64,000 nucleotides of DNA from an uncultured Eubacterium sp. (lineage in GTDB: Bacteria; Bacillota; Clostridia; Lachnospirales; Lachnospiraceae), in assembly GCA_947089855.1 (NCBI GenBank), contig CAMUML010000012.1, forward strand, positions 1 through 64,000, in the 5' to 3' direction. This document shows positions 4,638-62,762 of the stretch, piece by piece. Position 1 is the first letter of the stretch. Every line of letters begins with the position of its first letter. The position numbers and the translations under genes were made by a program. Under the pieces are notes generated by a model. It searched no databases and was not told where the DNA came from. It saw nothing but the letters and a program-made list of their open reading frames with translations.

Positions 4638-5178
4638 TTATATATTCAAGGCTGAAAGGTTGATACAGAACCCAGGATATATACTGACAGGGATGCCATC
4701 AGAAAAAGCGTAGTTTGTGGCGCTTTTATTCTGGAAATCGTAGACAATTACCAGATTTCTTTCATCGTCCACAATCCAATATTCCCGGACTCCTGCGGTA
4801 CGGTATTTAAAAAGCTTTGTGTAATAATCCATAGGGCGGTTACTTGGTGATACGATTTCGATGATCCAGTCTGGAGCTCCAGAACAGCCTTTATCTGTGA
4901 GCTTGTTATGGTCGCAGATCACGCATATATCCGGTTCAACGTAATTTATATCATCTTCATTCAAAAATACGGCGAATGGGGCAAAAAACGGCTCACAGGC
5001 CCCGTCATTTGATATAGGAATCTATGGAAGTAAAAAGTTCCCTGGCTATTGTCTGGTGTTTTCGGCTAGGCGGGGCCATGTAGTATATCTGGCCATCAAT
5101 CAGTTCGGCACGTTTTCCATCCGGCAAAGCATAAATATCATCAATGGTATAGAACCTTTCTTGTGCTAATGCTGACAT
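4638..5178 (-). pseudogene. Uma2-family (DUF820) PD-(D/E)XK nuclease, frameshifted
   Basis: Two consecutive reading frames together make one Uma2-type protein of about 180 residues. The first (5178 to about 5014) begins MSALAQERFYTIDDI after a plausible ribosome site and runs to SIDSYIK before a stop. The second picks up GACEPFFAPFAVFL and continues through EPDICVICD, APDWIIEIVSPSN and REYWIVDD to the stop at 4638. Restoring two A residues in the run at about 5011-5014 would join them as IKNDGACEP. The PD-(D/E)XK core (EPD, then IEIVSPS) lies in the downstream part. The family is common in bacteria and of uncertain biological role. A sequencing error is the alternative to a true frameshift. 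Confidence 0.75.
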
Positions 5179-5309
5179 AATAACACTTCCTTTCTTGTAC
5201 TCTTTCCTTTGTTCAGATAAAGCCCAATACACCTTCTTGACCCTATTCCACATTACATTATAAAGTATAACATGATGCCAATGTAATGTACATGACAAAA
5301 TTATGTACA

Positions 5310-5406
5310 GTTACTATTCACGTAACAGTTCAAGGGTTATCTGAACTGTTACCTATTCACGGGCCAGGAACGCGCATAAACTGCGCATTCCGTGAGAACA
5401 TGATTC
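5310..5406. repeat. truncated GTTAC-ended element (family A), interrupted
   Basis: It begins GTTACTATTCAC, is interrupted by a 31-bp hairpin, then continues with GGGCCAGGAACGCG and the segment ending ATGATTCAG. This matches one half of the full copies at 14997-15140 and 41527-41672. The remaining half is missing, and a family C element begins 9 bases later. Confidence 0.7.
5322..5352. repeat. 31-bp hairpin inserted in a repeat, flanked by 8-bp duplication
   Basis: GTAACAGTTCA and TGAACTGTTAC form a perfect 11-bp stem around a 9-base loop. CTATTCAC occurs directly before (5314-5321) and after it (5353-5360). Removing the hairpin and one CTATTCAC copy restores the family A end sequence seen elsewhere, so it looks like a small insertion with target-site duplication. 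Confidence 0.65.
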
Positions 5407-5414
5407 AGCCAATC

Positions 5415-5574
5415 GTTACTTTTCACACCCCAGCCAGAAAGCGGCTGTGCTGTAAAAAGTAACGGCATCCGGCCCATTGGAAGTTCGCCTTTGGCGAAAG
5501 GCCGGATGCATGACAGGCCGCATTCTTTGGCCCTGACCAGACAGCAGGTGTCTGGTCAGGGTGTGAAAAGTAAC
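5415..5574. mobile_element. 160-bp MITE-like element, family C, copy 1
   Basis: Perfect 15-bp terminal inverted repeats (GTTACTTTTCACACC at the left) bound a 160-bp unit containing two smaller hairpins. AGCCAATC occurs immediately before (5407-5414) and immediately after it (5575-5582), a clear 8-bp target-site duplication. An apparently identical copy lies at 8029-8188. It encodes no protein, so movement would need a transposase supplied from elsewhere. Confidence 0.85.
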
Positions 5575-5613
5575 AGCCAATCAATATTCCGGCAGAAAGT
5601 TCTGTGAATCTAT

Positions 5614-5642
5614 TTGACATTTTTCCATATTTTTTTTATAAT
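5614..5642 (+). promoter_or_regulatory. consensus sigma-A promoter of the MarR gene
   Basis: Perfect TTGACA, a 17-base spacer and perfect TATAAT lie about 40 bases upstream of the MarR start codon. The spacer is T-rich. A strong unregulated core suggests control by a repressor, possibly the MarR protein itself (inference). Confidence 0.85.
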
Positions 5643-5683
5643 AAAACCGGTAAAACAATTTACATAAGGAGGAACGCGCCAGC

Positions 5684-6106
5684 ATGAAGCTGCACGAATG
5701 CATCAATTTCCTTCTCACCATTTCCCAACATACCGTTTCGCAGGCCCTAAACCAGCGGCTTGCACCGTATGGCATTACTCCGTCCCAATATGGCGTCTTA
5801 AACTGCCTGTGGTTAAACGACGGTATCTGCCTACCGCGGCAGATCGCCGAAACGCTGTATTTAGAAACGCCTACCGTCTCCGGTATTTTAGAACGCATGC
5901 AGAAAAAAGGGCTGGTTGACCGGGCGATTAATACGGAAAACCGGAGGGAAATTTTAGTAATTCTTACAGACAAAGGCCGGGCACTGGAAGAACCCGTGCA
6001 AAAGGTTATTGATGAGTTAAACGTAGATGTTTTGAAAAGTTTTTCGAAAGAAGATGCAGATTTTATCCGCAAATCACTGCTTCAAATTGCAGAAAAAACA
6101 TTGTAA
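5684..6106 (+). CDS. MarR-family transcriptional regulator
   Basis: A 140-residue winged-helix protein. Helices leading to YGITPSQYGVLNCLWLNDG and the recognition region LYLETPTVSGILERMQKKGLVDR are followed by the wing with NRREILVILTDKGR, a standard MarR arrangement. An AAGGAGG site precedes the ATG. It converges with the MATE exporter gene, whose stop codon lies 74 bases beyond this gene's. MarR proteins often sense small aromatic or toxic molecules and repress efflux genes, so the neighbouring exporter is a candidate target; this is inference because the two genes do not share a promoter region. Confidence 0.9.
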   Translation: MKLHECINFLLTISQHTVSQALNQRLAPYGITPSQYGVLNCLWLNDGICLPRQIAETLYLETPTVSGILERMQKKGLVDRAINTENRREILVILTDKGRALEEPVQKVIDELNVDVLKSFSKEDADFIRKSLLQIAEKTL

Positions 6107-6127
6107 TGGCTGTTACAATGTTTTTTT
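6098..6127 (+). terminator. terminator overlapping the MarR stop codon
   Basis: ACATTGTAA and TTACAATGT form a 9-bp stem, followed by a seven-T run. The TAA in the first arm is the stop codon of the MarR gene, so coding sequence and terminator overlap. Confidence 0.85.
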
Positions 6128-6179
6128 GCTCTACCGCCGTCTTTTTCGGTTATAGCCCTGCTTTTACCACAATGCGGCA

Positions 6180-7538
6180 TTATCCGTCCCTGCGCGTCAG
6201 GTTCCGGACCCACCGGTAGCTGTTTCCGTAAATAGCTGCTGGGATACATTTAAAATACTGGTCGCTGTTTAGTGACAGCAATACGATAACTGGGGATGCA
6301 TGGAACCAGAATGCACAAGCAAAAGACAATGGAATTACGATTCCCCAAATAGAAACCAGATCCATAACCAGCACATACCTTGTATCCCCGCCACCGCAGA
6401 TTACCCCTGTATTCATGCACATCTGATAGGACATCACAACCAGTACGCTTGCTTCAATTAGGATAAACGTACTCGCCAAGCCCTCCGTTTCCGGTGCAAG
6501 TGTATACAGTCCAAGCAATGGGCCCCGGATAAGGAGCAGCACTATCCCAAGCACGGTCCCAATCCCAAGAAACAATATCTGAAATGTCTTTGTATATTCT
6601 TTGACCTTATCCAAATTTCCATTACCAACTGCTTTACCCGTCAACACCGCTGCCGCGGAAGAAGCGCCCACAGATGTTACTTTTAAAAATAAGAAGATGG
6701 TTGAGGAAATCGAGTGCGCTGCGATTGCATTTGCCGACATATGCCCTAAAATAACCGTCTGCAATGCTGTATTGCATCCCCATAAAAACCCAGTCAGGAT
6801 AATCGGCAGGCTGACCCGTACATAATCCTGGGCTAGCTGCTTTTCCATCTGCAGCAGACCTTTCCACTCTAGATGCAACAGCTTATCTTTGCGCAGGACA
6901 TAAACGCCAACTATAATACATTCTACGATCCGGGCCGTCAATGTCCCAATTGCCGCACCGCGCACACCTAATTCCGGAAAACCAAACTGCCCTTTGATCA
7001 ATACATAATTTATGGAACAGTTTATGGCAAGTGCGATAACCGACACATACAACGCTATTTTTACTTTTTCCACAATCCGCATACTACCTAACAACACGGT
7101 TGTAAAGGCAAAAAACAGGTAGCTAAACCGCACAATGGAAAGGTAGTCCATGCCTTGTGCAACAATCGCCCTATCCGCTGTAAAAATCCCTACGGCTGTA
7201 TGCGGAAACAGGCTGACACAGGCAAACAATACTGCCGCAATCCCCACTGCCGTCCAAAGCGCAACCGAAACCAGCCTACGAACTGGTTCCAGCTTCTGCT
7301 GCCCCCAGTACTGGCTCGCCAGCACAATCATGCCATTGCTGGCCGCATGGACGAGCTGTTGTAAAATAAACTGTATCTGGTTTACTGCTGCCACACCAGA
7401 CAATGCCGTTTCAGAATAACTGCCAAGCATAATATTATCCGCCAAATTGACACTAAGCACTACTGCCTGCTGGAGCATCAACGCGAGTGCCAGCCGGAAA
7501 AATGACTGGTAAAATGATTTGTCTTTGGTAAGTGTCAT
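6180..7538 (-). CDS. MATE-family multidrug/sodium antiporter
   Basis: A 452-residue, very hydrophobic protein with the twelve-helix pattern of the MATE family. The N-terminus has LMLQQAVVLSVNLADNIMLGSYSETALSGVA, matching the first MatE repeat, and ASQYWGQ is the usual motif after helix 2. The second repeat begins around LPIILTGFLWGCNTALQTVILGHMSANAIAAHS. The family exports cationic drugs or metabolites in exchange for Na+ or H+ at the cytoplasmic membrane; the substrate is unknown. The gene converges with a MarR regulator. Its upstream region (7539 onward) is filled by nested inverted repeats rather than an obvious promoter. Confidence 0.9.
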   Translation of the reverse strand: MTLTKDKSFYQSFFRLALALMLQQAVVLSVNLADNIMLGSYSETALSGVAAVNQIQFILQQLVHAASNGMIVLASQYWGQQKLEPVRRLVSVALWTAVGIAAVLFACVSLFPHTAVGIFTADRAIVAQGMDYLSIVRFSYLFFAFTTVLLGSMRIVEKVKIALYVSVIALAINCSINYVLIKGQFGFPELGVRGAAIGTLTARIVECIIVGVYVLRKDKLLHLEWKGLLQMEKQLAQDYVRVSLPIILTGFLWGCNTALQTVILGHMSANAIAAHSISSTIFLFLKVTSVGASSAAAVLTGKAVGNGNLDKVKEYTKTFQILFLGIGTVLGIVLLLIRGPLLGLYTLAPETEGLASTFILIEASVLVVMSYQMCMNTGVICGGGDTRYVLVMDLVSIWGIVIPLSFACAFWFHASPVIVLLSLNSDQYFKCIPAAIYGNSYRWVRNLTRRDG

Positions 7539-7617
7539 GGCTGTACCTCTAAATTTCCTTCGCCCTTTCTGTCCATTGCTTCGCTGACTTTCGGTTTCTA
7601 CTTTTTGTATTCCAAAA

Positions 7618-7938
7618 CGAGTGCTCCATCCGGGCAGAAATTAGAGTTTAGGAACTGTCCCGAAATAAGGATTCTTAAAGAAATAACGTGACATATTGCT
7701 TGTCTTTTTCTCCGATAGCACAAGGCAAAAATTAGTTACATAGCCCGCTATGCGCCTGATTTTTAAGTGGTGCTATCGGAGAAAAAGACAAGGAGGGACA
7801 GTTCCTTAGTGCTGGCTGATCCGCGTCAGTGCAAGTCAAAATTTCGACGGCGAGGTTCCATCAACTAGAAATTTTAATACAGCAATGGCGCGAATCAGGC
7901 TGTAATGAACTCTAATTTCTGCCCGGATGGAGCACTCG
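7618..7938. repeat. large inverted-repeat element with perfect 31-bp arms
   Basis: Positions 7618-7648 and 7908-7938 are perfect inverted copies (31 bp, containing GTGCTCCATCCGGGCAGAAA). They enclose a second inverted-repeat element at 7650-7806. No reading frame of note lies inside. It occupies most of the 835-bp gap between the MATE and uxuB genes, with the family C element at 8029-8188 filling much of the rest. Confidence 0.75.
7650..7806. repeat. nested palindromic element with AGGAACTGTCC ends
   Basis: AGGAACTGTCC (7650-7660) and its inverse (7796-7806) bound an element inside the outer repeat at 7618-7938. A further 22-bp perfect inverted pair, containing TTTTTCTCCGATAGCAC, lies at 7699-7720 and 7770-7791. 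The ends resemble those of the small element at 45168-45233. Confidence 0.65.
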
Positions 7939-8028
7939 GCCTATTCTTATATTTCTTTTTATTCTACCTTACTTTTGGGAATATGGCAACCAATTATGCC
8001 ATAGGATTTTAGGGACGATGCAGGAATG

Positions 8029-8188
8029 GTTACTTTTCACACCCCAGCCAGAAAGCGGCTGTGCTGTAAAAAGTAACGGCATCCGGCCCATTGGAAGTTC
8101 GCCTTTGGCGAAAGGCCGGATGCATGACAGGCCGCATTCTTTGGCCCTGACCAGACAGCAGGTGTCTGGTCAGGGTGTGAAAAGTAAC
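8029..8188. mobile_element. 160-bp MITE-like element, family C, copy 2
   Basis: This reads as identical to the unit at 5415-5574, in the same orientation, with the same 15-bp terminal inverted repeats. CAGGAATG occurs directly before (8021-8028) and after it (8189-8196), an 8-bp target duplication different from that of copy 1. The target is itself a fragment of family A, which continues to about 8240. Confidence 0.85.
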
Positions 8189-8240
8189 CAGGAATGCGCA
8201 TAAACTGCGCATTCCGTGAGAACTTGATTCAGGAGTAAGG
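8189..8240. repeat. fragment of GTTAC-ended family A used as insertion target
   Basis: The segment CAGGAATGCGCATAAACTGC through the GATTCAGGAGTAAGG region matches the distal half of the family A copies. The outer terminus is missing. It lies 130 bases beyond the uxuB stop codon. Confidence 0.6.
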
Positions 8241-8373
8241 AATACCAATCCATAACAAAAGCCGCCTCAAATTAAAAACCTTTTGAGGCAGCCTTCCCAC
8301 TCTCATTTGTAATTGCAAGAAGGAAAATCTGCAACTTAAGTTTAAATTTTCCCGGATCTATTACGAAATGCCT

Positions 8374-9981
8374 TTACACATATTTTTTCAATGTTTCCCG
8401 TACAGCCCCCGGCCCTGCCAGCATTTCATTCAGATAACGGACAACTTCCTGCGCCATTCCAGCATCAAACAGGTTGACGCCAAAAATCTTGCTGTCTTCC
8501 AGCACTGGCTTTAATTCATCCGCGCTTACCGTGGAACCAAGCTTTTGGCCTGCTACATATGGGCGCACCGTATCCAGCAACGGGTCTGGGCTGAGTTCAA
8601 ATGACCCTCCTTCATCATTGATACCTGTTAAATAGCGCAGCCAGCCTGCAAATACAAGCGGGATAAGCTTTAACTGCGTTACATCCAAATCTGGGGATGC
8701 CTGGTAAGCCTTTATGGTTTCGCCGAAACGGATAGCGAGTTTTTGCGACGTGTCCGTTGCGATCCGTTGTGGGGTATCTGGCATAAATGGATTTGGAAAG
8801 CGGACATTGATCACGGTGTCAATAAATGACCTTGGATCTAGGATGCCTGGATTAACCACAACTGGGAGCCCTTCCTGGTATCCTACGGTTTCAATGAGCT
8901 TCTTTAATTCCACATCTTTCATTTCTTCCGAAATCTTTTGATGCCCAAGGATACATCCAAAAATAGCAAGGCAGGTATGCAGTGGGTTTAAGCAGGTGCA
9001 GACTTTCATCTTTTCTACCTTATCCACCGTTTCGCGCTCGGTAAACATCACCCCGGCTTTTTCCAGTGGCGGCCTTCCATTTGGGAATGCATTTTCAATT
9101 ACAAGGTACTCACACTCTTCGGCATTGACAAACGGTGCAACATACGTATTTTTTGACGTAACCACAGGCTCAAGCCCTTCGACGCCGTCTTTTTTTAGGA
9201 TTTCTTCTACGGATGCATCTGGGCGCGGCGTAATCTTATCAATCATGCTCCATGGGAACGATACGTTTGCTTTGTCATTGACATAATTTAAGAATGCCTG
9301 TTCTACTAACCCGTTGGCTGACCATTTTTCTGCAAATGCGCTGATTGCTGCATACAGCTTATCCCCATTATGGGAACAGTTGTCCATGCTCACCATTGCG
9401 ATCGGCTTTGCGCCTGCCTGGAAACGGGCATATAATAAGGAAGCGACTTTTCCGATATAGCTTTTCGGCTTGTCCGGGCCTGCTGCAAAATCGGCTGCTA
9501 CATCCGCAAGCTGCTCCCCTTTGCCGTTTACCAGGCTGTAGCCTTTTTCGGTGATCGTAAAGCTGGCCATCTGCAAGGAATCTTTGGTAAATATTTCTTT
9601 AAGCCTGCCGTATTCCGCATCGTTTTGCGAATCCAACGTATGTGATTCCACAATACTGCCTACAACTGTTTTTTCTACACTGCCATCTGATTTTAATGTC
9701 ACAAGAATACTGTAATCGTCATGTGGGCGGTTCATTTTTTCTACTATCTCATAATCAAACCCTTCTGCCGCAACCAGGCCGGTATCCATTTCTCCGTTAT
9801 TCAAGAGTTTCTGCACTACATTTGCCTGGAACGCGCGGAAGATATTCCCGACCCCAAAATGGATCCATACCGGGTTTTCCCTGGTTGCCTGGGCCACTTT
9901 TGTGCGGTCAAACTTCGGCAATTCAAACCCTGCGGCCTCCCATCCAGCCCTGTCCGCCAATCCTTGTCCATTTAATTTCAT
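8374..9981 (-). CDS. uxuB: fructuronate reductase / mannitol dehydrogenase family
   Basis: A 535-residue NAD(P)-dependent polyol dehydrogenase of the mannitol dehydrogenase family. The start at 9981 follows GGAAAGGAG; an upstream in-frame ATG at 10062 adds 27 unsupported residues. The N-terminal domain contains WIHFGVGNIFRAFQANVVQKLL (dinucleotide fold) and SMDNCSHNGDK. The C-terminal domain contains KVCTCLNPLHTCLAIFGCILG. In this family fructuronate reductase converts fructuronate to mannonate. The uidA and glucuronide-type transporter genes upstream on the same strand make this assignment likely. The uronate isomerase that would link glucuronate to fructuronate is not in the window. A 266-bp gap containing a degenerate repeat separates it from the transporter gene. 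Confidence 0.85.
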   Translation of the reverse strand: MKLNGQGLADRAGWEAAGFELPKFDRTKVAQATRENPVWIHFGVGNIFRAFQANVVQKLLNNGEMDTGLVAAEGFDYEIVEKMNRPHDDYSILVTLKSDGSVEKTVVGSIVESHTLDSQNDAEYGRLKEIFTKDSLQMASFTITEKGYSLVNGKGEQLADVAADFAAGPDKPKSYIGKVASLLYARFQAGAKPIAMVSMDNCSHNGDKLYAAISAFAEKWSANGLVEQAFLNYVNDKANVSFPWSMIDKITPRPDASVEEILKKDGVEGLEPVVTSKNTYVAPFVNAEECEYLVIENAFPNGRPPLEKAGVMFTERETVDKVEKMKVCTCLNPLHTCLAIFGCILGHQKISEEMKDVELKKLIETVGYQEGLPVVVNPGILDPRSFIDTVINVRFPNPFMPDTPQRIATDTSQKLAIRFGETIKAYQASPDLDVTQLKLIPLVFAGWLRYLTGINDEGGSFELSPDPLLDTVRPYVAGQKLGSTVSADELKPVLEDSKIFGVNLFDAGMAQEVVRYLNEMLAGPGAVRETLKKYV

Positions 9982-10103
9982 ATTTAACTCCTTTCCTGCT
10001 GCGGAATGCAGCACTGCTTTATACCTAGATAATATACCAAAAATTACAGCAATTGAAAACATGCTGTTTTGCGTTTTACCTTCGCCTGGAAAACAAAATT
10101 ACT

Positions 10104-10171
10104 TGCAAAGCAAACTTTCCATATCGCCCCGAATTGTTACTATGAGCGGCATCCAGGCCGTGAATAGCAAC
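10104..10171. repeat. degenerate partial family A repeat inside the glucuronide operon
   Basis: GCAAAGCAAACTTTCCATAT, CGCCCCGAATTGTTACTATG and CCGTGAATAGCAAC match the end of family A in reverse orientation, with several substitutions. It lies between the transporter stop and the uxuB start and may affect transcription between them. Confidence 0.6.
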
Positions 10172-14996: not shown

Positions 14997-15140
14997 GTTA
15001 CTATTCACGGCCTGGGGGCCGCTCATAGTAACCTTTCGGGGCGATATTGGAAGTTTGCTTCGCAAAATCGCCCCTCACTCCTGAATCATGTTCTCACAGA
15101 ATGCGCAGTTTATGCGCATTCCTGGCCCGTGAATAGTAAC
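14997..15140. mobile_element. 144-bp GTTAC-ended MITE-like element, family A, complete copy
   Basis: Terminal inverted repeats GTTACTATTCACGG / CCGTGAATAGTAAC (14 bp, perfect) bound three internal hairpins. One surrounds TTTGCTTCGCAAA, and one pairs AATGCGCAG with its inverse. CAGGTTAC lies directly before (14989-14996) and after it (15141-15148), an 8-bp target-site duplication. It separates the AraC and CPBP genes. Other copies are at 22535-22669, 41527-41672 and, as fragments, 5310, 8189, 10104 and 49946. Confidence 0.85.
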
Positions 15141-18036: not shown

Positions 18037-18265
18037 GCATACAGAAGCCGGGGCTTTCCGGCTATGCTTGCGGAGAAATGCCGGAACCTCTTAGCATTCT
18101 GCCGTTAATCAGAATTTCCGGGCATGGACGCCCGGAAAAGGGGATTGCCGCCACGGACGGCGGGTCAATCCCCGGTTCGTCCGGCTACAATAACTTTGGC
18201 GCAGAATGCTTAGAGGTTGCGGCATTTCGCAGCGGCATAGCCGGAAAGCCCCGGCTTCTGTATGC
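18037..18265. mobile_element. 229-bp palindromic element with 65-bp arms
   Basis: Positions 18037-18067 and 18235-18265 are perfect inverted copies (31 bp, containing ACAGAAGCCGGGGCTTTCCG). The pairing continues inward with few mismatches to AGCATTCTG / CAGAATGCT. The loop contains further hairpins around CCGGGCATGGACGCCCGG. Three imperfect direct repeats of CCGCCACTTTTGTTTCTTTT follow at 18275-18370. A long open frame across this region is an artefact of the palindrome. Confidence 0.7.
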
Positions 18266-22534: not shown

Positions 22535-22669
22535 GTTACTATTCACGGCCTGGGGGCCGCTCATAGTAACCATTCAGGGCGATATTGGAAGTTTGCTTCG
22601 CAAAATCGCCCCTCGCTCCTGAATCATGTTCTCACGGAATGCGCAATTTATGCACATCCCTGGCCCGTG
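22535..22669. mobile_element. family A element with altered right end, overlapping a gene end
   Basis: It starts GTTACTATTCACGGCCTGGG and follows the 14997-15140 copy closely, including the TTTGCTTCGCAAA hairpin. The right end stops at GGCCCGTG instead of running to GTGAATAGTAAC. The last 22 bases are the 3' end of the aminotransferase gene on the minus strand. No target-site duplication is visible. Confidence 0.75.
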
Positions 22670-23952
22670 GATTCCAGTAATTTTTCCACGCTAACCAAAC
22701 GGATACAGCATACAAGCGATTCTGCAGCCTGCTTCATTTCCTCTATATCTGGAAAGGTCGGTGCAATCCGGATCGTAGAATCTTTTGGGTCTTTTTTATA
22801 TGGAAACGGCGCACCTGCCGCAGTCAGCGTAATGCCGGCTTGCTTTGCTTTGTCGATAATTGCCTTCGCACAGCCTTCCAAGGATTCAAAACAGATAAAA
22901 TACCCTCCTTTCGGCTTAATCCAAGTCCCAATTTCACGCGGCGCAATTTCCCTGGAAAATATCTCTTCTACGGCTTCAAATTTTGGACGTACTAGTTCTG
23001 CGTGTTTTCTCATATGCGCGCGTACACCGTCCATATCTTTTAAATAATGGGAATGTACCCACTGTTTAATCTTGTCATGGCCGATCGTCTGGATTGACAT
23101 CTGTGCACAGATGCCTTCCCGGTTTGCTTCGGACGCAGCCATTGCAGACATACCCGCACCGGAAAAAGTTACTTTTGATGTGGAGCAAAACTGATAAATC
23201 ATATCTGGATTGCCAGCTTTTTCACATTCCGCCATGATCGGAAGCAGCTCATCACGGTCATCGTCATATAAATCATGTACGGCATAAGCGTTATCCCAAA
23301 AAATGCGGAAATCTTTTGCTGCAGGCTTTAACGCTGCAAACCGGCGCACGGTTTCATCAGAATAGGTAATGCCTTGTGGATTGGAGTATTTTGGCACACA
23401 CCAGATGCCTTTTACCGCTTCATCTTCGCTGACCAGCTTTTCTACCATATCCATATCCGGGCCATCCTGCGTCATTGGGATATTGACCATCTCAATGCCG
23501 AAATATTCGGTAATGGAAAAATGACGGTCATATCCCGGAACTGGGCATAAAAATTTTACCTTATCCAGCTTGCACCACGGCGTGGAGCCTAAAACCCCAT
23601 GTGTCATGGATCGGGCAATCGTATCATACATAATGTTAAGGCTTGCATTGCCATACACAATGACATCTTCCGGCCTGCAGTCCATAAAACCTGCCATCAG
23701 CTTCTTTGCTTCCCCAATACCGTCCATCCCGCCGTAATTGCGGCAATCGGTGCCGTCTTCGGCAATCAGCGCTACGCCGGAATGGATCATATCGTACATA
23801 TCCATTGATATATCCAGCTGCGCTGGCGACGGCTTGCCCCTGGTCAGGTTTAAATCCAGGCCAAGCGCTTTTATTTTTTTATATTCCTCTTCCAGTTCCG
23901 CCTTTTCCCTTAATAATTCCCCGCGGTCCATTTTTAAATATGATTTCATCAT
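22648..23952 (-). CDS. PLP-dependent class I aminotransferase (aspartate aminotransferase subgroup Ic type)
   Basis: A 434-residue aminotransferase. Features are LNLTRGKPSPAQLD near residue 33, DCRNYGG, the substrate/PLP segment FWDNAYAVHDLY, and STSKVTFSGAGMSA carrying the likely PLP lysine. This layout belongs to the MocR-like aminotransferase family that includes subgroup Ic aspartate aminotransferases (family knowledge); the substrate is therefore probably aspartate or glutamate but is not proven. A second ATG one codon downstream sits better after GGAGG. The final residues, STGQGCA, and the stop codon are encoded by the end of a family A repeat, so the natural C-terminus has probably been replaced. 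Confidence 0.85.
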   Translation of the reverse strand: MMKSYLKMDRGELLREKAELEEEYKKIKALGLDLNLTRGKPSPAQLDISMDMYDMIHSGVALIAEDGTDCRNYGGMDGIGEAKKLMAGFMDCRPEDVIVYGNASLNIMYDTIARSMTHGVLGSTPWCKLDKVKFLCPVPGYDRHFSITEYFGIEMVNIPMTQDGPDMDMVEKLVSEDEAVKGIWCVPKYSNPQGITYSDETVRRFAALKPAAKDFRIFWDNAYAVHDLYDDDRDELLPIMAECEKAGNPDMIYQFCSTSKVTFSGAGMSAMAASEANREGICAQMSIQTIGHDKIKQWVHSHYLKDMDGVRAHMRKHAELVRPKFEAVEEIFSREIAPREIGTWIKPKGGYFICFESLEGCAKAIIDKAKQAGITLTAAGAPFPYKKDPKDSTIRIAPTFPDIEEMKQAAESLVCCIRLVSVEKLLESTGQGCA

Positions 23953-41318: not shown

Positions 41319-41526
41319 TGCCTGTTTCCTCCAATCATTTGAAATTTTTATCGAAATGTACCTGCCTGTTTCCGCCAATTTTCCCGGCTGCAATTGGCTG
41401 GCACCGCCTGTTTTAACGCCTTGCACTGGCGGATTTAGAATACACGAATTATCCGAATTATAGCATGGCTGTTTGGATAACGTCAAGAATCTTAGGAATG
41501 TATTTTTAGATTCTAAGGCCTGGGGG

Positions 41527-41672
41527 TACTATTCACGGGCCAGGAATGCGCATAAACTGCGCATTCCGTGAAAACATGATTCAGGAGTGAGGGGCGATTT
41601 TGCAAAGCAAACTTCCAATATCGCCCCGTATGGTTACTATGAGCGGCCCCCCCCCAGGCCGTGAATAGTAAC
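41527..41672. mobile_element. family A element, reversed copy, with 8-bp duplication
   Basis: This runs from TACTATTCACGGGCCAGG (the first two bases, GT, are missing) to CCGTGAATAGTAAC, in the opposite orientation to the copy at 14997. CCTGGGGG lies directly before (41519-41526) and directly after it (41673-41680). A run of nine C replaces the shorter C run of the other copies at about 41647. It lies between the sigF and GH31 genes. Confidence 0.8.
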
Positions 41673-41721
41673 CCTGGGGGATGGCGGGATGGACGCTGGA
41701 AGGCCGCTTAAAACAGGACAC

Positions 41722-49945: not shown

Positions 49946-49982
49946 GTTACTATTCACGGCCGGGGGGGCCGCTCATAGTAAC
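49946..49982. mobile_element. 37-bp hairpin element with 8-bp target duplication
   Basis: GTTACTATTCACGGCC and GGCCGCTCATAGTAAC with a G-rich loop correspond to only the first 37 bases of the 144-bp family A element. CTTGTTAT lies immediately before (49938-49945) and after it (49983-49990). It is the smallest family A unit and still shows a duplication, 31 bases upstream of the valS -35 box. Confidence 0.75.
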
Positions 49983-51998: not shown

Positions 51999-52304
51999 CT
52001 ATTCATCTGTATCCAATGCATCCCAATCTACCTTCGGCGTATATGCGTCAATGTCCCTGGTATGTTTATCAATATCTACGGTATGTTGATCCGCATCGAC
52101 CGTATGCTGATTGATATCGGCCGTATGTTGATCAATATCTACCGTATGTTGATCCGCGTCGACCGTATGCTTCTCAATATCCACCGGCTTTAATACTTGT
52201 GTTTCCTTACCGCTGCCTATCCCGCACCCACTTACAACGGTGCAAGGAAAAAGCACCATTGCTGCTATACAATAGCCCATAACCCCGTTTTTTACTTTTT
52301 TCAT
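51999..52304 (-). CDS. small lipoprotein with heptapeptide His-Asp repeats
   Basis: A 101-residue protein starting at the ATG at 52304, after AAAGGGGATGA. A signal peptide with lipobox VVSGC predicts lipid anchoring at the Cys near residue 27. The mature part holds six consecutive 7-residue repeats of the pattern HTVDxDQ (HTVDADQ, HTVDIDQ, HTADINQ, HTVDADQ, HTVDIDK, HTRDIDA), with a short acidic tail. The DNA repeats are 21 bases long and near identical (about 52050-52180). The His/Asp periodicity suggests metal binding or an extended rod; no family is recognised. Confidence 0.7.
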   Translation of the reverse strand: MKKVKNGVMGYCIAAMVLFPCTVVSGCGIGSGKETQVLKPVDIEKHTVDADQHTVDIDQHTADINQHTVDADQHTVDIDKHTRDIDAYTPKVDWDALDTDE

Positions 52305-52330
52305 TCTATCATCCCCTTTCAATTTATACC

Positions 52331-52491
52331 AGTACACCGTAAAATAAATAACTGGTTATATTGCGCCGGATAAATCTTCGAGAGTGCATGGCAAAAACCG
52401 GAGGTGTACCGGGGTACATTGAGGATTTTTGCCATGTGCTCCCGGAGATTTAGACAAACAAGATGGCCAGTTATTTATTTTACGGTGTACT
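52331..52491. mobile_element. 161-bp palindromic element, family E, copy 1
   Basis: Ends AGTACACCGTAAAATAAATA and its inverse (the arms pair over at least 25 bases) bound a unit with a GTACCGGGGTAC centre. The reverse complement reads as identical to 61152-61312. It begins 27 bases upstream of the lipoprotein start codon and therefore occupies its promoter region. No target duplication could be assigned. Confidence 0.85.
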
Positions 52492-52497
52492 AGTGTG

Positions 52498-58507: not shown

Positions 58508-59974
58508 TTAAACAGTTATTTTCCTTTTTGCACGCTCCGCCGCCACTTCCTCTACCGATTTTTCTTTCAGCCTTGCAGCCCCCTGATACCCTTCTTTTGT
58601 CGGAACCAGGCTTCCATTTGCAAGGTTTTCTTTGGCTTTGGCAACCGCTTCTTTGTATTGCGGCAGCCATGCTTCCTGTGCCACCAGCATTTCATCTATC
58701 ATCTGCCATACTTCTGGCGGGTTACATACTGCACCCGTCAGCGGATCCATTAAAGCTGCCTGTTTCAAAAGCTGTGCATCCCCATGTACGGCCGCTTCTA
58801 CCGCAAGTTTTTGTACCCAGATAGACTGGGAACATACGGCTGCACATCCCAGTGGAAGGTCGCCGACCTTTGGTACGCTGATGCCGCTGCCGTCTACATA
58901 GCATGGCACTTCTACGACAGATTCATAAGGCAGGTTTGTAATACAGCCTTCATTCATCATATTGAAATGGCCGCGGTAGATTTTTCCCGTCTCTAGTGAT
59001 TCGATAATATACGAGCAATGTTCCTTTCCACGTGCAGAACCGTCCAGTTTTGTAGGCTCTTCTTCTAAAATCTTTGGGTAATCGGTTTCAAACCAGTTGC
59101 GTTCTTCCCTGGATTCCCTTAAATAGCCGCCTGTTTCGCCATTGATCCAGTTGCCCAGGTGTATCCAGTCTTTGATTTCATCTGGACGTTTCCGGTACCA
59201 TGCCACATATTCGGAAAGGTGCCCATTAGACTCGGTGGAATAATAGCCAAAACGCTTTAGCATGTCAATGCGCACTTTCTCTTCTTCCCGGAATTTTTCG
59301 TGTTTTAAAAATCCTGGAAGGATTTGGTCCAATAGCTCCTGCCCATGATGTTTTACTGAAATATACCAGGTCTGATGGTTGATCCCTGCACAGATAATAT
59401 CCAGTTCCTCCCGTGGGATACCGAGCACTTCTGCTATCTGCATTTCCCCGTGTATCTCACCGTGGCATAAACCAATGGTTTTTACTTTTCCGTACCGGTT
59501 GCAGGCCCAGGTTGCCATTGCATTTGGGTTGGAATAATTAAGCATAATGGCGCCTGGTTCGGAAACTTCGCGTATATCTTTGCAAAAATCCAGCATTGCT
59601 GCGATGACCCTCTGGCCATACATAATCCCGCCTGTACACAGCGTATCGCCTACACATTGGTCTACCCCATATTTGAGCGGGATTTCTATATCTGTTTCAA
59701 ATGCTTCCAGCCCGCCAATGCGCACGCAGTTAATAATATAGCGCGCATCTTTAAAAGCTTCCCTACGGTCTGTAGTTGCCTGGATCTTTACTGGGATGCC
59801 ATTTGCATCCAAATCCCTCTGACAAAGCGCCCTTGTCTTTTCCAGGTTATCCGGATTGATGTCGGTAAATGCAATCTCTGCTTCCCGCAGCTTTGGCACT
59901 GACATAATGTCAGTAAATAACGTCCTTGCAAATACAAGGCTCCCTGCTCCGATAAATGCAATTTTAAAACTCAT
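58508..59974 (-). CDS. glycoside hydrolase family 4 enzyme with CHGE motif
   Basis: A 488-residue GH4 protein. The NAD+-binding GAGSLVFARTLFTDI opens it. GLCHGE holds the Mn-ligand Cys170 and His171, INHQTW holds His200, and NYSNPNAMATWA is also typical. GH4 cleaves glycosides by NAD+-dependent oxidation and elimination. The four residues after the conserved Cys track substrate in the family: CHS is usual for alpha-galactosidases and CHG for alpha-glucuronidases, as I recall from the literature. Here CHGE leaves the substrate open, and alpha-glucuronidase is worth testing. An AraC-type regulator gene diverges from it, suggesting local control. Confidence 0.85.
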   Translation of the reverse strand: MSFKIAFIGAGSLVFARTLFTDIMSVPKLREAEIAFTDINPDNLEKTRALCQRDLDANGIPVKIQATTDRREAFKDARYIINCVRIGGLEAFETDIEIPLKYGVDQCVGDTLCTGGIMYGQRVIAAMLDFCKDIREVSEPGAIMLNYSNPNAMATWACNRYGKVKTIGLCHGEIHGEMQIAEVLGIPREELDIICAGINHQTWYISVKHHGQELLDQILPGFLKHEKFREEEKVRIDMLKRFGYYSTESNGHLSEYVAWYRKRPDEIKDWIHLGNWINGETGGYLRESREERNWFETDYPKILEEEPTKLDGSARGKEHCSYIIESLETGKIYRGHFNMMNEGCITNLPYESVVEVPCYVDGSGISVPKVGDLPLGCAAVCSQSIWVQKLAVEAAVHGDAQLLKQAALMDPLTGAVCNPPEVWQMIDEMLVAQEAWLPQYKEAVAKAKENLANGSLVPTKEGYQGAARLKEKSVEEVAAERAKRKITV

Positions 59975-60223: not shown

Positions 60224-61153
60224 ATGCACTTATACGACCCACAAAAACCTTACGCGGCAATCACAGCTTTTTATGCCCTGCCGCTTTCAGAATACCATAT
60301 GCACCCACACAGGCATCCGCGCTGCGAAATTATGTATATTACAAAGGGCTCCTGCTACGTCTATGCCGGCCAACAGGAATTCTGCTTAAAAGAACAGCAG
60401 TTTATCTTTCTGCAGGATGAAGTAAACCATCAGCTTTTGATACCGGAAAACCATCCCTGCTCCCTGCTAAATTTAGAGTTCTCCTGCCAAAAGGAAAACA
60501 CAGGCATTGACCTGTCAAAACTGTACCAGGAAAGCCCCGCCTTTGGTAAATTATGTGCCCTGCCAGAAGCGTATTTTACCGGAACCGACACAGGCAGCCT
60601 GGGATATGCCCTCAAAGACCTGATCGCGCATTTAGAAAATAATACCGATGCCATACACTCCAAAGACCATGCGTTCCTGATCCGCCTCCTGTTTTTCCGT
60701 GCGTTGCTGGAACTCTCCAAATGCGCTGCAAACCAAAGCAAAACTGCAGGCGCAATGGTTTATCTGAAAAAAGCCTGCACCTATATCGACGCACACTTGA
60801 CCGAAGACATCCGCATCCCACTTCTTGCCGCATATACTGGGATCCATAAGTCTTACTTACAGGCACTGTTTTCCAAATATATGCATAGTACAATTACCAG
60901 CTATATTACCCGAAAACGCCTGGAACTGGCTGCCTTCCTTTTAAGCAACAGCGCGCTTTCCATCACAGACATTGCCTTCCAGTCCGGCTACAACAGCCGC
61001 CAGCATTTCGGCAGCACCTTTGAAAAATACTACGGCATGAGCCCCCGCAGCTATCGGCAGCTCCACGGAAAATGCGTAGACCCTTCAACCGGAGAAGACT
61101 ATTACTTCATCGATGAAGATGGATCCTGGACAAATGTTCCATTAAAATACTAG
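60224..61153 (+). CDS. AraC-family regulator with cupin sensor
   Basis: A 309-residue protein starting after AAAGGAG. The N-terminal cupin domain (HMHPHRHPRCEIMYITKGSCYVYAGQQEF) likely binds the sugar ligand. The C-terminal helix-turn-helix pair includes YTGIHKSYLQALFSKY and ITDIAFQSGYNSRQHFGSTFEKYYGMSPRSYRQL. It diverges from the CHGE-type GH4 gene and probably regulates it. The final stop codon, TAG, overlaps the first bases of the 161-bp family E element, so an insertion may have set this end. Confidence 0.88.
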   Translation: MHLYDPQKPYAAITAFYALPLSEYHMHPHRHPRCEIMYITKGSCYVYAGQQEFCLKEQQFIFLQDEVNHQLLIPENHPCSLLNLEFSCQKENTGIDLSKLYQESPAFGKLCALPEAYFTGTDTGSLGYALKDLIAHLENNTDAIHSKDHAFLIRLLFFRALLELSKCAANQSKTAGAMVYLKKACTYIDAHLTEDIRIPLLAAYTGIHKSYLQALFSKYMHSTITSYITRKRLELAAFLLSNSALSITDIAFQSGYNSRQHFGSTFEKYYGMSPRSYRQLHGKCVDPSTGEDYYFIDEDGSWTNVPLKY

Positions 61154-61312
61154 TACACCGTAAAATAAATAACTGGCCATCTTGTTTGTCTAAATCTCCG
61201 GGAGCACATGGCAAAAATCCTCAATGTACCCCGGTACACCTCCGGTTTTTGCCATGCACTCTCGAAGATTTATCCGGCGCAATATAACCAGTTATTTATT
61301 TTACGGTGTACT
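61152..61312. mobile_element. 161-bp palindromic element, family E, copy 2
   Basis: Same sequence as 52331-52491, in opposite orientation, apparently without mismatch. ACTAGTAC occurs at both outer junctions, which may be part of the ends or a target duplication. It overlaps the stop codon of the AraC gene on its left. Confidence 0.85.
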
Positions 61313-61342
61313 AGTACTCCATCCAGAAAACCAATTTATACA

Positions 61343-61439: not shown

Positions 61440-62762
61440 TTACCGGTACATCTTCATATAGTCCCCATGCGCCTCCAGCAGCTCATCGCACATACCCACA
61501 ATGTCATCCATACTAAGCTCTGCCGCCGTATGCGGATCCAGCATCGCTGCCTGGTAAATATATTCTTTCTTCCTGGTTGCAGCGGCTTCTATAGCCAAAA
61601 GCTGTACATTGATATTGGTCATATTCATAGCCGCAAGCTGTACCGGAAGCCTGCCGACCCTGCAAGGCGCCACACCGCTGCTGTCCACTAGGCATGGCAC
61701 TTCTACGCAGGCATCCGCCGGAAGGTTTTCGATACACCCTTTATTGACCACATTTCCGCCGATTTTATAAGGCTGGCCGGTAACAACTGCTTCTATAATA
61801 TAGGAAGCATATTCCTTGCTCCGCTCATGTGTAATTTTCCCATCATTCAAGATGTTATTTTTTTCCTCTTCCCATTTTTCAATCTGCTCGATACACCTTC
61901 TTGGATACTCGTCCAGCGGAATATTGTATTTTTCGATTAAATCCGGGTATTTTGCCTTGATAAAAAGTGGGTTGTATTCCGCATTGTGTTCGCTGGATTC
62001 TGTGCAGTAATAGCCAAAACGCTTAATATACTCAAAACGTACCATATCGTTGTGTTTTTCTGATGCATTTTTCTCCGCTGCTTTCCTGCGGATTTCCGGA
62101 TATAGGTCGTTCCCGTCTTTATCATGCAGTGAAAGGAGCCAGCCCATATGGTTGATGCCTGCGATCGTCTCTACGCGCCCTTCCAGCTTATCTTCCATGC
62201 CAAGTTCTTCCAGCAGCGTTTTGGAGCATACCTGCACACTGTGGCACAGCCCGATGGTCTGGACGTTGGTATAGCGCTGCATATACCCGGTCAGTATGCC
62301 CATTGGATTTGTGTAATTTAAAAACAGTGCATCCGGGCACACTTCTTCCATATCCCTGGCAAACCCTTCCAGCACTGGTATGGTACGCAAGCCGCGCATA
62401 ATCCCGCCGATACCAAGGCTGTCTGCGATTGTCTGGCGCAGGCCATATTTTTTTGGAATTTCAAAATCGGTAATCGTACATGGGTCGTAGCCGCCTACCT
62501 GGATGGCATTGACTACAAATGAAGCGCCCCTTAACGCCTCTTTCCGGTTTTCTTCCCCTAAATATGCCTTGATGGAAGCACGGCCTTCATTGACATTTCT
62601 GTTAATTGCATTCAGGATAATTTCCGAATCCGAAAGCCGTTTCGGGTCGATGTCATAAAGCGCAATTTCGCTCCCACAAAGGGCTGGGCTGCACATGCAG
62701 TCGCCAAGTACATTCCTTGCAAAAACTGTGCTTCCTGCCCCCATAAAAGTAATTTTCACCAT
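61440..62762 (-). CDS. melA: alpha-galactosidase, glycoside hydrolase family 4
   Basis: A 440-residue GH4 enzyme. GAGSTVFARNVLGD binds NAD+. GLCHSV contains Cys173 and His174, and INHMGW contains His205. The CHS motif and length are those of MelA-type alpha-galactosidases, which split melibiose and raffinose-type sugars. It is cytoplasmic. GGAGG lies 9 bases before the ATG at 62762. An AraC regulator gene lies 81 bases upstream on the same strand, so the two are probably one transcript; no transporter gene is in the window. Confidence 0.92.
   Translation of the reverse strand: MVKITFMGAGSTVFARNVLGDCMCSPALCGSEIALYDIDPKRLSDSEIILNAINRNVNEGRASIKAYLGEENRKEALRGASFVVNAIQVGGYDPCTITDFEIPKKYGLRQTIADSLGIGGIMRGLRTIPVLEGFARDMEEVCPDALFLNYTNPMGILTGYMQRYTNVQTIGLCHSVQVCSKTLLEELGMEDKLEGRVETIAGINHMGWLLSLHDKDGNDLYPEIRRKAAEKNASEKHNDMVRFEYIKRFGYYCTESSEHNAEYNPLFIKAKYPDLIEKYNIPLDEYPRRCIEQIEKWEEEKNNILNDGKITHERSKEYASYIIEAVVTGQPYKIGGNVVNKGCIENLPADACVEVPCLVDSSGVAPCRVGRLPVQLAAMNMTNINVQLLAIEAAATRKKEYIYQAAMLDPHTAAELSMDDIVGMCDELLEAHGDYMKMYR

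Follow-up and report, generated by a model that had tools for sequence, protein, structure and literature searches.

Small GTTAC-ended elements of an uncultured Eubacterium and their probable origin from divergent IS66 insertion sequences

Which mobile element places identical, gene-less units at different sites of one bacterial genome? The question is raised by a 64,000-nucleotide stretch of an uncultured Eubacterium sp. of the Lachnospiraceae (assembly GCA_947089855.1, contig CAMUML010000012.1, positions 1 to 64,000 of the forward strand; hereafter, the window), which contains two copies of a 160-bp unit, here called unit A. An initial annotation, made from the sequence alone, ascribed the two copies to recent transposition and left the insertion sequence (IS) family open. 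We find that unit A is very probably a miniature inverted-repeat transposable element (MITE) that carries the terminal recognition sequences of a divergent IS66 element with a single open reading frame (ORF). The host assembly is a 4.08-Mb draft of 101 contigs, 89.7% complete, and the window is part of its contig 12.

Unit A and the GTTAC-ended set

The copies of unit A at 5415-5574 and 8029-8188 are identical at 160 of 160 bases, and each has its own perfect 8-bp target duplication, AGCCAATC and CAGGAATG, respectively; in these points the initial annotation is confirmed. The inverted ends that it described are also present, but they measure 16 bp (GTTACTTTTCACACCC) rather than 15 bp. As is typical of a MITE, unit A is short (160 bp) and lacks a transposase gene; no ORF of at least 100 amino acids (aa) overlaps either window copy. 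With unit A as a query, 26 matches are found in the host genome: 13 of full length, one over 126 of the 160 bases, and 12 shorter, several of which are reverse matches of a hairpin within copies already counted. Perfect duplications border 10 of the 13 full-length copies and duplications with a single mismatch another two. Four copies, located on three contigs, are 100% identical, and their duplications are all different (ATCTGTTT, AGCCAATC, CAGGAATG and AAGAAATA). The claim of recent transposition of a non-coding unit is borne out by these four copies: the two window units are recent insertions of a MITE that has been recently active. Relatives of unit A are also present in several genomes of the genus.

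The initial annotation had suggested a genome-wide search for further copies with the same ends, and this search is productive. The 12-base end motif GTTACTWTTCAC occurs 309 times in the host genome versus once for the reversed control, and 23 times in the window when up to two mismatches are allowed, versus 4.9 expected. Of 12 further genomes from the genus, five have it often (140, 76, 39, 25 and 21 hits) and the remaining seven 1-9 times. We tallied inverted GTTAC/GTAAC-type end pairs 25-400 bp apart in fetched stretches of the host genome, which were picked by end motif or similarity and so cover part of all copies (the first of the 309 motif places were listed, and 40 of 219 candidates were scored in one comparison). 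To count as a duplication of length k, a direct repeat at the element borders had to span exactly k bases. The 267 pairs include 83 with a perfect 8-bp repeat and another 14 whose repeat has one mismatch; repeats of 5, 6, 7, 9, 10 and 11 bases are found at 0, 0, 3, 2, 0 and 0 pairs. Shuffled flanks give a mean of 0.68 and a maximum of 3 repeats of 8 bp versus the 83 observed, and a chance origin of the 8-bp duplications is excluded. Copies without duplications had been named beforehand as an outcome that would speak against transposition. Such cases do occur, as 170 of the 267 pairs lack even a one-mismatch duplication; the list, however, mixes whole elements, inner-end pairings and broken copies, and the full-length copies of unit A are duplicated in the proportions given above.

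By similarity, the main families are A (160 bp), B (144 bp), C (175 bp) and E (136 bp). Their ends are alike and their interiors different, save for a 15-bp stretch common to B and C. The window units at 14997, 41527 and 49946 are of family B. They had been grouped with unit A into one GTTAC-ended set with 8-bp duplications, and this grouping holds, with the duplications CAGGTTAC, CCTGGGGG and CTTGTTAT present. In the unit at 41527-41672 one end is two bases short, yet CCTGGGGG can be read by eye at both 41519-41526 and 41673-41680. We further noticed 266-bp variants of unit B in which the second half is different, each with a perfect 8-bp duplication (L090:4767-5032, L094:705-970 and L095:447-712). 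The members of the set in the window, with their duplications, are the following.

5415..5574, plus strand: unit A copy 1, 160 bp, non-autonomous, ends GTTACTTTTCACACCC / GGGTGTGAAAAGTAAC
5407..5414: target duplication AGCCAATC, left of unit A copy 1
5575..5582: target duplication AGCCAATC, right of unit A copy 1
5415..5463, plus strand: terminal mini-hairpin of unit A, closed by the inverted inner end GTAAAAAGTAAC
8029..8188, plus strand: unit A copy 2, identical to copy 1
8021..8028: target duplication CAGGAATG, left of unit A copy 2
8189..8196: target duplication CAGGAATG, right of unit A copy 2, in the tail of an old unit B remnant (8188-8240)
5322..5352, plus strand: 31-bp palindromic short form (family E), duplication CTATTCAC, in the end of a unit B remnant
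5310..5408, minus strand: truncated unit B remnant, split by the 31-bp element
10103..10171, minus strand: partial unit B, 69 bp, 88% identity
14997..15140, plus strand: unit B, 144 bp, duplication CAGGTTAC
22535..22672, plus strand: unit B without its last bases
41527..41672, minus strand: unit B with one eroded end, duplication CCTGGGGG
49946..49982, plus strand: 37-bp short form, the unit B terminal hairpin alone, duplication CTTGTTAT

Divergent IS66 elements with the same ends

The suggestion in the initial annotation to look for an IS with transposase-linked GTTACT ends leads to divergent IS66 elements. In G005, a genome of the same genus, unit-type ends enclose 2314 bp with a single 575-aa ORF (locus L109), the product of which matches the Pfam model DDE_Tnp_IS66 (PF03050; 43 bits, 5.1e-11, cut-off 23.1). 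Residues D330, D382 and E507 are conserved across two divergent and two canonical IS66 proteins and, by our own assignment, would form the DDE triad. Likewise, in related bacteria, elements of 2.2-2.4 kb have a divergent IS66 (DDE) transposase between ends of the form GTTACT[T/G]TTCACACC. A scan of named genomes with the L109 protein yields 24 loci, in records labelled mostly Lachnospiraceae or other Clostridia, and in 11 of them the ORF is flanked by the end motif left and right. L176, one of the 11, begins at a contig end, which leaves ten for the duplication count. Three of these ten show a perfect 8-bp duplication: L162 in Lachnospiraceae bacterium A4 (2304 bp, duplication CTATTCTT, intact 573-aa ORF), L164 in an uncultured Dorea (2359 bp, AACATACA) and L165 in Firmicutes UBA5473 (2240 bp, GATAGATG).

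Unit A shares its ends with such autonomous elements. Exactly 16 of 16 terminal bp are identical at both ends to L109, L160, L162 and L164, four of the seven elements compared, and the longest interior likeness to any of the compared elements is 18 bp at 94%, with L162. The duplications agree in length as well, being 8 bp in the units and in L162, L164 and L165. The family assignment that had been left open can be resolved as a divergent IS66 subgroup and, like the mobility of the units, is well supported. A transposase of this kind, acting in trans, would recognise ends of the form GTTACT[T/A]TTCAC[ACCC] and would insert the unit elsewhere, mostly between genes, with an 8-bp target duplication left behind. 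We infer both this movement in trans and a working source in the lineage, past or present.

The units could also be viewed as repetitive extragenic palindromic (REP) or REPIN-like sequences moved by a REP-associated tyrosine transposase (RAYT, Y1 type), as they are small, mostly intergenic palindromes of high copy number. We consider this extremely improbable given the 8-bp duplications at 83 insertions and the ends common to a DDE element; REP-type mobility is not known to duplicate target sites. This judgement comes from the duplications examined, no search for a RAYT gene having been made.

Canonical IS66 elements of 1.8 kb in G004 have the ends GTAACTGTTCAGCACCCC and GTAACTATTCAGAACCCC, starting GTAAC, and a perfect 8-bp duplication at 8 of 12 two-ended loci. 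A canonical IS66 element as the direct partner of the units was rejected after the PF03050 search; the 6.5-kb stretch around the host C3 copy, up to the contig end, has no end motif of either kind. IS66 ends generally start GTAA, and the partner elements here start GTTAC. Excerpts of published papers, to which all literature comparisons here are limited, give the IS66 ends GTAAGCG and GTAACCG (PMC12888890) and also ISDge4, one end of which starts GTGAC (PMC12898284); the GTAA rule is therefore not strict. For two IS66 elements of Paracoccus, a table gives the figure 8, which we take as the duplication length (PMC3281130).

Several observations weigh against an origin of the units from divergent IS66 elements. 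The L109 protein reaches 120.5 bits with the NCBIfam IS66 model, below the cut-off of 180, with positions 1-379 of 387 matched; it is therefore called a divergent relative or subgroup of IS66. Seven of the ten complete-looking loci (L157-L160, L169, L170 and L175) lack a perfect duplication. The record of L157 carries the label Eubacteriaceae bacterium, and this locus is apparently the same element as that of G005 (100% protein identity, seven matching flank bases). The missing duplications may stem from the age of the insertions, from rearrangement between copies or from misassembly of metagenome bins. For units B, C and E, no intact partner was matched with the same extended ends, and the nearest partner for unit B, L176 (15 bp), has its gene split over two frames. 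Finally, no intact copy of the divergent transposase was found in the host genome. Its sole match there covers 66 residues at 56% identity with a stop in frame, and PF03050 detects two pieces of other IS66 genes, a broken gene where a contig ends and a short fragment. These findings do not prove absence from the host, because the assembly is incomplete and fragmented, as stated above, and repeats tend to fall in assembly gaps; the source element may have been lost from the host lineage. It is for want of an intact host transposase that the movement of the units is placed in trans.

A 50-bp element at L216:280-329 has the duplication TTAATCAC, and its halves resemble the tips of a GTTACTTTTCACACCCACG-ended IS66 element; it is possibly the scar of a lost autonomous copy in the host genome. 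Exact-pattern scans of viral contigs found nothing, a comparison with solved structures gave one match at chance level (E 0.2), and 71 records from a plasmid collection are all below 60% identity.

Folding, short forms and insertion sites

We aligned 24 copies of unit A, 21 of them distinct, from five genomes (the host, G002, G004, G007 and G009). The rows are the window copy and 23 of the 28 printed copies; L001 (the same as the window copy), L006 and L009 (the same as used rows), and L116 and L123 (near-duplicates of L117) were omitted, and 6 of the 20 fetched stretches lack a full unit A and were not used. Three hairpins span most of the unit. Compensatory changes are evident, with both sides changed across species in 16 of 47 pairs, and 93.1% of the cells pair, compared with 34-41% when the partners are slid by 1-3 columns. 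The covariation score of the three hairpins is reached by none of 500 shuffles, with the caveat that related sequences can beat shuffles without structure. One of five measures runs in the opposite direction (21 further pair types versus 25.1 in the shuffles). The register of helix 2 is shifted by one base between species, so that the counts for this helix are too low.

At position 6, the near end and the inner end are both changed (T-A versus A-T) in 8 of the 21 distinct sequences and the far end stays T; thus, the inner end follows its pairing partner there. This co-change may be a single inherited event. In most host copies, the inner end is one base off both outer ends. Pairing of the two outer ends is not favoured as the main structure, as both sides are changed in 1 of 16 pairs and column 6 is broken in 8 of 21 sequences; nevertheless, 93.9% of its cells are paired and its score is reached by 0 of 500 shuffles. 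One explanation is that the mini-hairpin and the two further hairpins are maintained at the DNA level, as a cruciform or a lagging-strand hairpin, as part of an IS66-type mobilisation that works on units as short as 31 bp. That the inner end changes together with the near rather than the far end fits this explanation, which we nonetheless regard as unlikely. Correction of imperfect palindromes at replication could create paired changes without selection.

The sites of the units bear on a different possibility, namely that they are primarily structured RNAs (regulators, terminators or mRNA stabilisers), repeated by chance, with transposition secondary. Among insertions with flanks of 1 kb or more on each side, and with genes called by ORF length only (at least 120 aa), 6 of 53 lie inside an ORF versus 165 of 265 random positions in the same stretches. 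Both this avoidance of ORFs and the paired changes, pairing fraction and shuffle test described above would be consistent with an RNA. However, A-C states occur in 9 pairs of the hairpins and G-U states in 6; with A-C no rarer than G-U, neither strand stands out as an RNA under selection. Of the 45 insertions with a called neighbour on both sides, 14 are between divergent genes and 5 between convergent genes, which tells against their acting as terminators, and no Rfam family reaches its gathering score over the units. A primary role as RNA is quite improbable.

In families A, B, C and E, one element end is a small hairpin formed by the outer end and an inverted inner copy of it. This layout, the short forms described next and the 31-bp element at 5322-5352 are absent from the initial annotation. 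Short forms of 31-64 bp consist of such a hairpin alone, and in the host genome they have duplications too, 11 perfect and 3 with one mismatch. One of these 14 belongs to B, eight to C and four to E; the last, L216, is among the perfect ones and looks like joined IS tips instead. In G007, a 50-bp form of the unit A hairpin also has a duplication. Such duplications would be expected if the short forms transposed independently through the inner inverted end, which is possible but, in our view, somewhat doubtful. The inner and outer ends of family C form direct repeats, almost identical and spaced by 111 bp, and deletion between them after insertion would leave the same product with its duplication kept; therefore, we do not claim independent transposition of 31-64-bp units. 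We read 41 terminal hairpins of family C, 28 followed by the body and 13 without it, the latter with 6 perfect duplications, 2 with one mismatch and 5 with none. The outer-end variant GTGAATAG is at the inner position in 2 of the 8 duplicated short C forms versus 0 of the 28 long forms, as deletion predicts, although the numbers are small, and no single lineage of short forms is apparent by eye. Most likely, the short forms arose from long forms, whether through use of the inner end or through an inner-outer deletion after insertion.

In 4 of the 83 insertions, joining the flanks gives an uninterrupted older element. One case is the 31-bp element nested in a unit B (window 5322); in two others a copy of unit B interrupts unit C, and in the fourth a composite lies in E. 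Unit A at 8029 is on the edge of a unit B remnant whose sequence includes the duplicated CAGGAATG. Among the matches listed for window 4700-8700 in 13 genomes of the genus, none has both flanks, and no orthologous empty site for either copy of unit A is among them. The unit B remnant at 5310 can be compared with G004 (L262): on its left flank the two sequences agree as far as TGTACA and part where GTTAC begins, which supports this one border only.

Other repeats, known systems and implications

The window contains further repeats. Perfect 31-bp inverted repeats at 7618-7938 surround a second palindrome (7699-7792), and numerous matches of 77-91% to 7806-7936 in genomes of the genus mark it as another repeat family that is not GTTAC-ended. 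A TwoAYGGAY RNA motif (RF01731, 105 bits) is located at 18068-18235 on the plus strand amid long inverted repeats. At 52328-52494 and 61148-61316, a pair of related palindromic repeats (about 167 bp, arms of 36-37 bp) lies in opposite orientation and possibly forms a further MITE-like family. A 21-bp tandem repeat of the GTATGTTGATC type (52039-52185) is within the minus-strand ORF 51999-52337. The neighbouring ORFs 58508-59974 and 61440-62762 have several 70-74% identical stretches in common and are probably paralogues.

Among known systems, the partner elements resemble the ISBst12 group of IS66 in the DDE_Tnp_IS66 domain, the single transposase ORF and the 8-bp duplication. A member of this group, ISDge4, has been seen to transpose and has ends GTGACTACTCAGCA/GTAACTGCTCAGCA with an 8-bp duplication (PMC12898284). 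The ends GTAACTGCTCAGCA of ISDge4, GTAACTGTTCAGCACCCC of G004 and GTTACTTTTCACACCC of the units are related. Unlike that group, the partner elements start GTTACT instead of GTAA, have a longer N-terminus and stay below the NCBIfam IS66 cut-off, and units A-E have no transposase gene. The units also resemble the IS-derived MITEs MITEPsy1, MITECca01 and QMITE1/2, which are short, gene-less and intergenic with inverted repeats and target duplications, and QMITE1 has size variants down to 39 bp (PMC10969869). The parents differ: ISPsy2 for MITEPsy1 (listed as IS5?), ISCca4 of IS982 for MITECca01, and divergent IS66 here. IS66 is not mentioned in the main text of that review (PMC10969869). Structured repeats of Borrelia plasmids show compensatory stem changes, as does unit A, and their authors suggest checking one repeat for a MITE link; unlike the units here, no target duplication or demonstrated transposase link was found for them in the excerpt (PMC2674063). 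In the literature searched, which covered few subscription papers, we recognised no description of this GTTAC-ended family of small elements.

The units are IS66-derived MITEs and so belong to a known type of mobile DNA; their folded architecture is unusually well conserved. Abundant small intergenic elements that would otherwise be anonymous repeats are thereby given a parent family, divergent IS66, and several sequence families are seen to share one folded layout. The transposition mechanisms of IS66 have been called insufficiently characterised (PMC12898284). If the fold does matter for movement, these units would provide a small testable system for how IS66-type transposases act on very short substrates.

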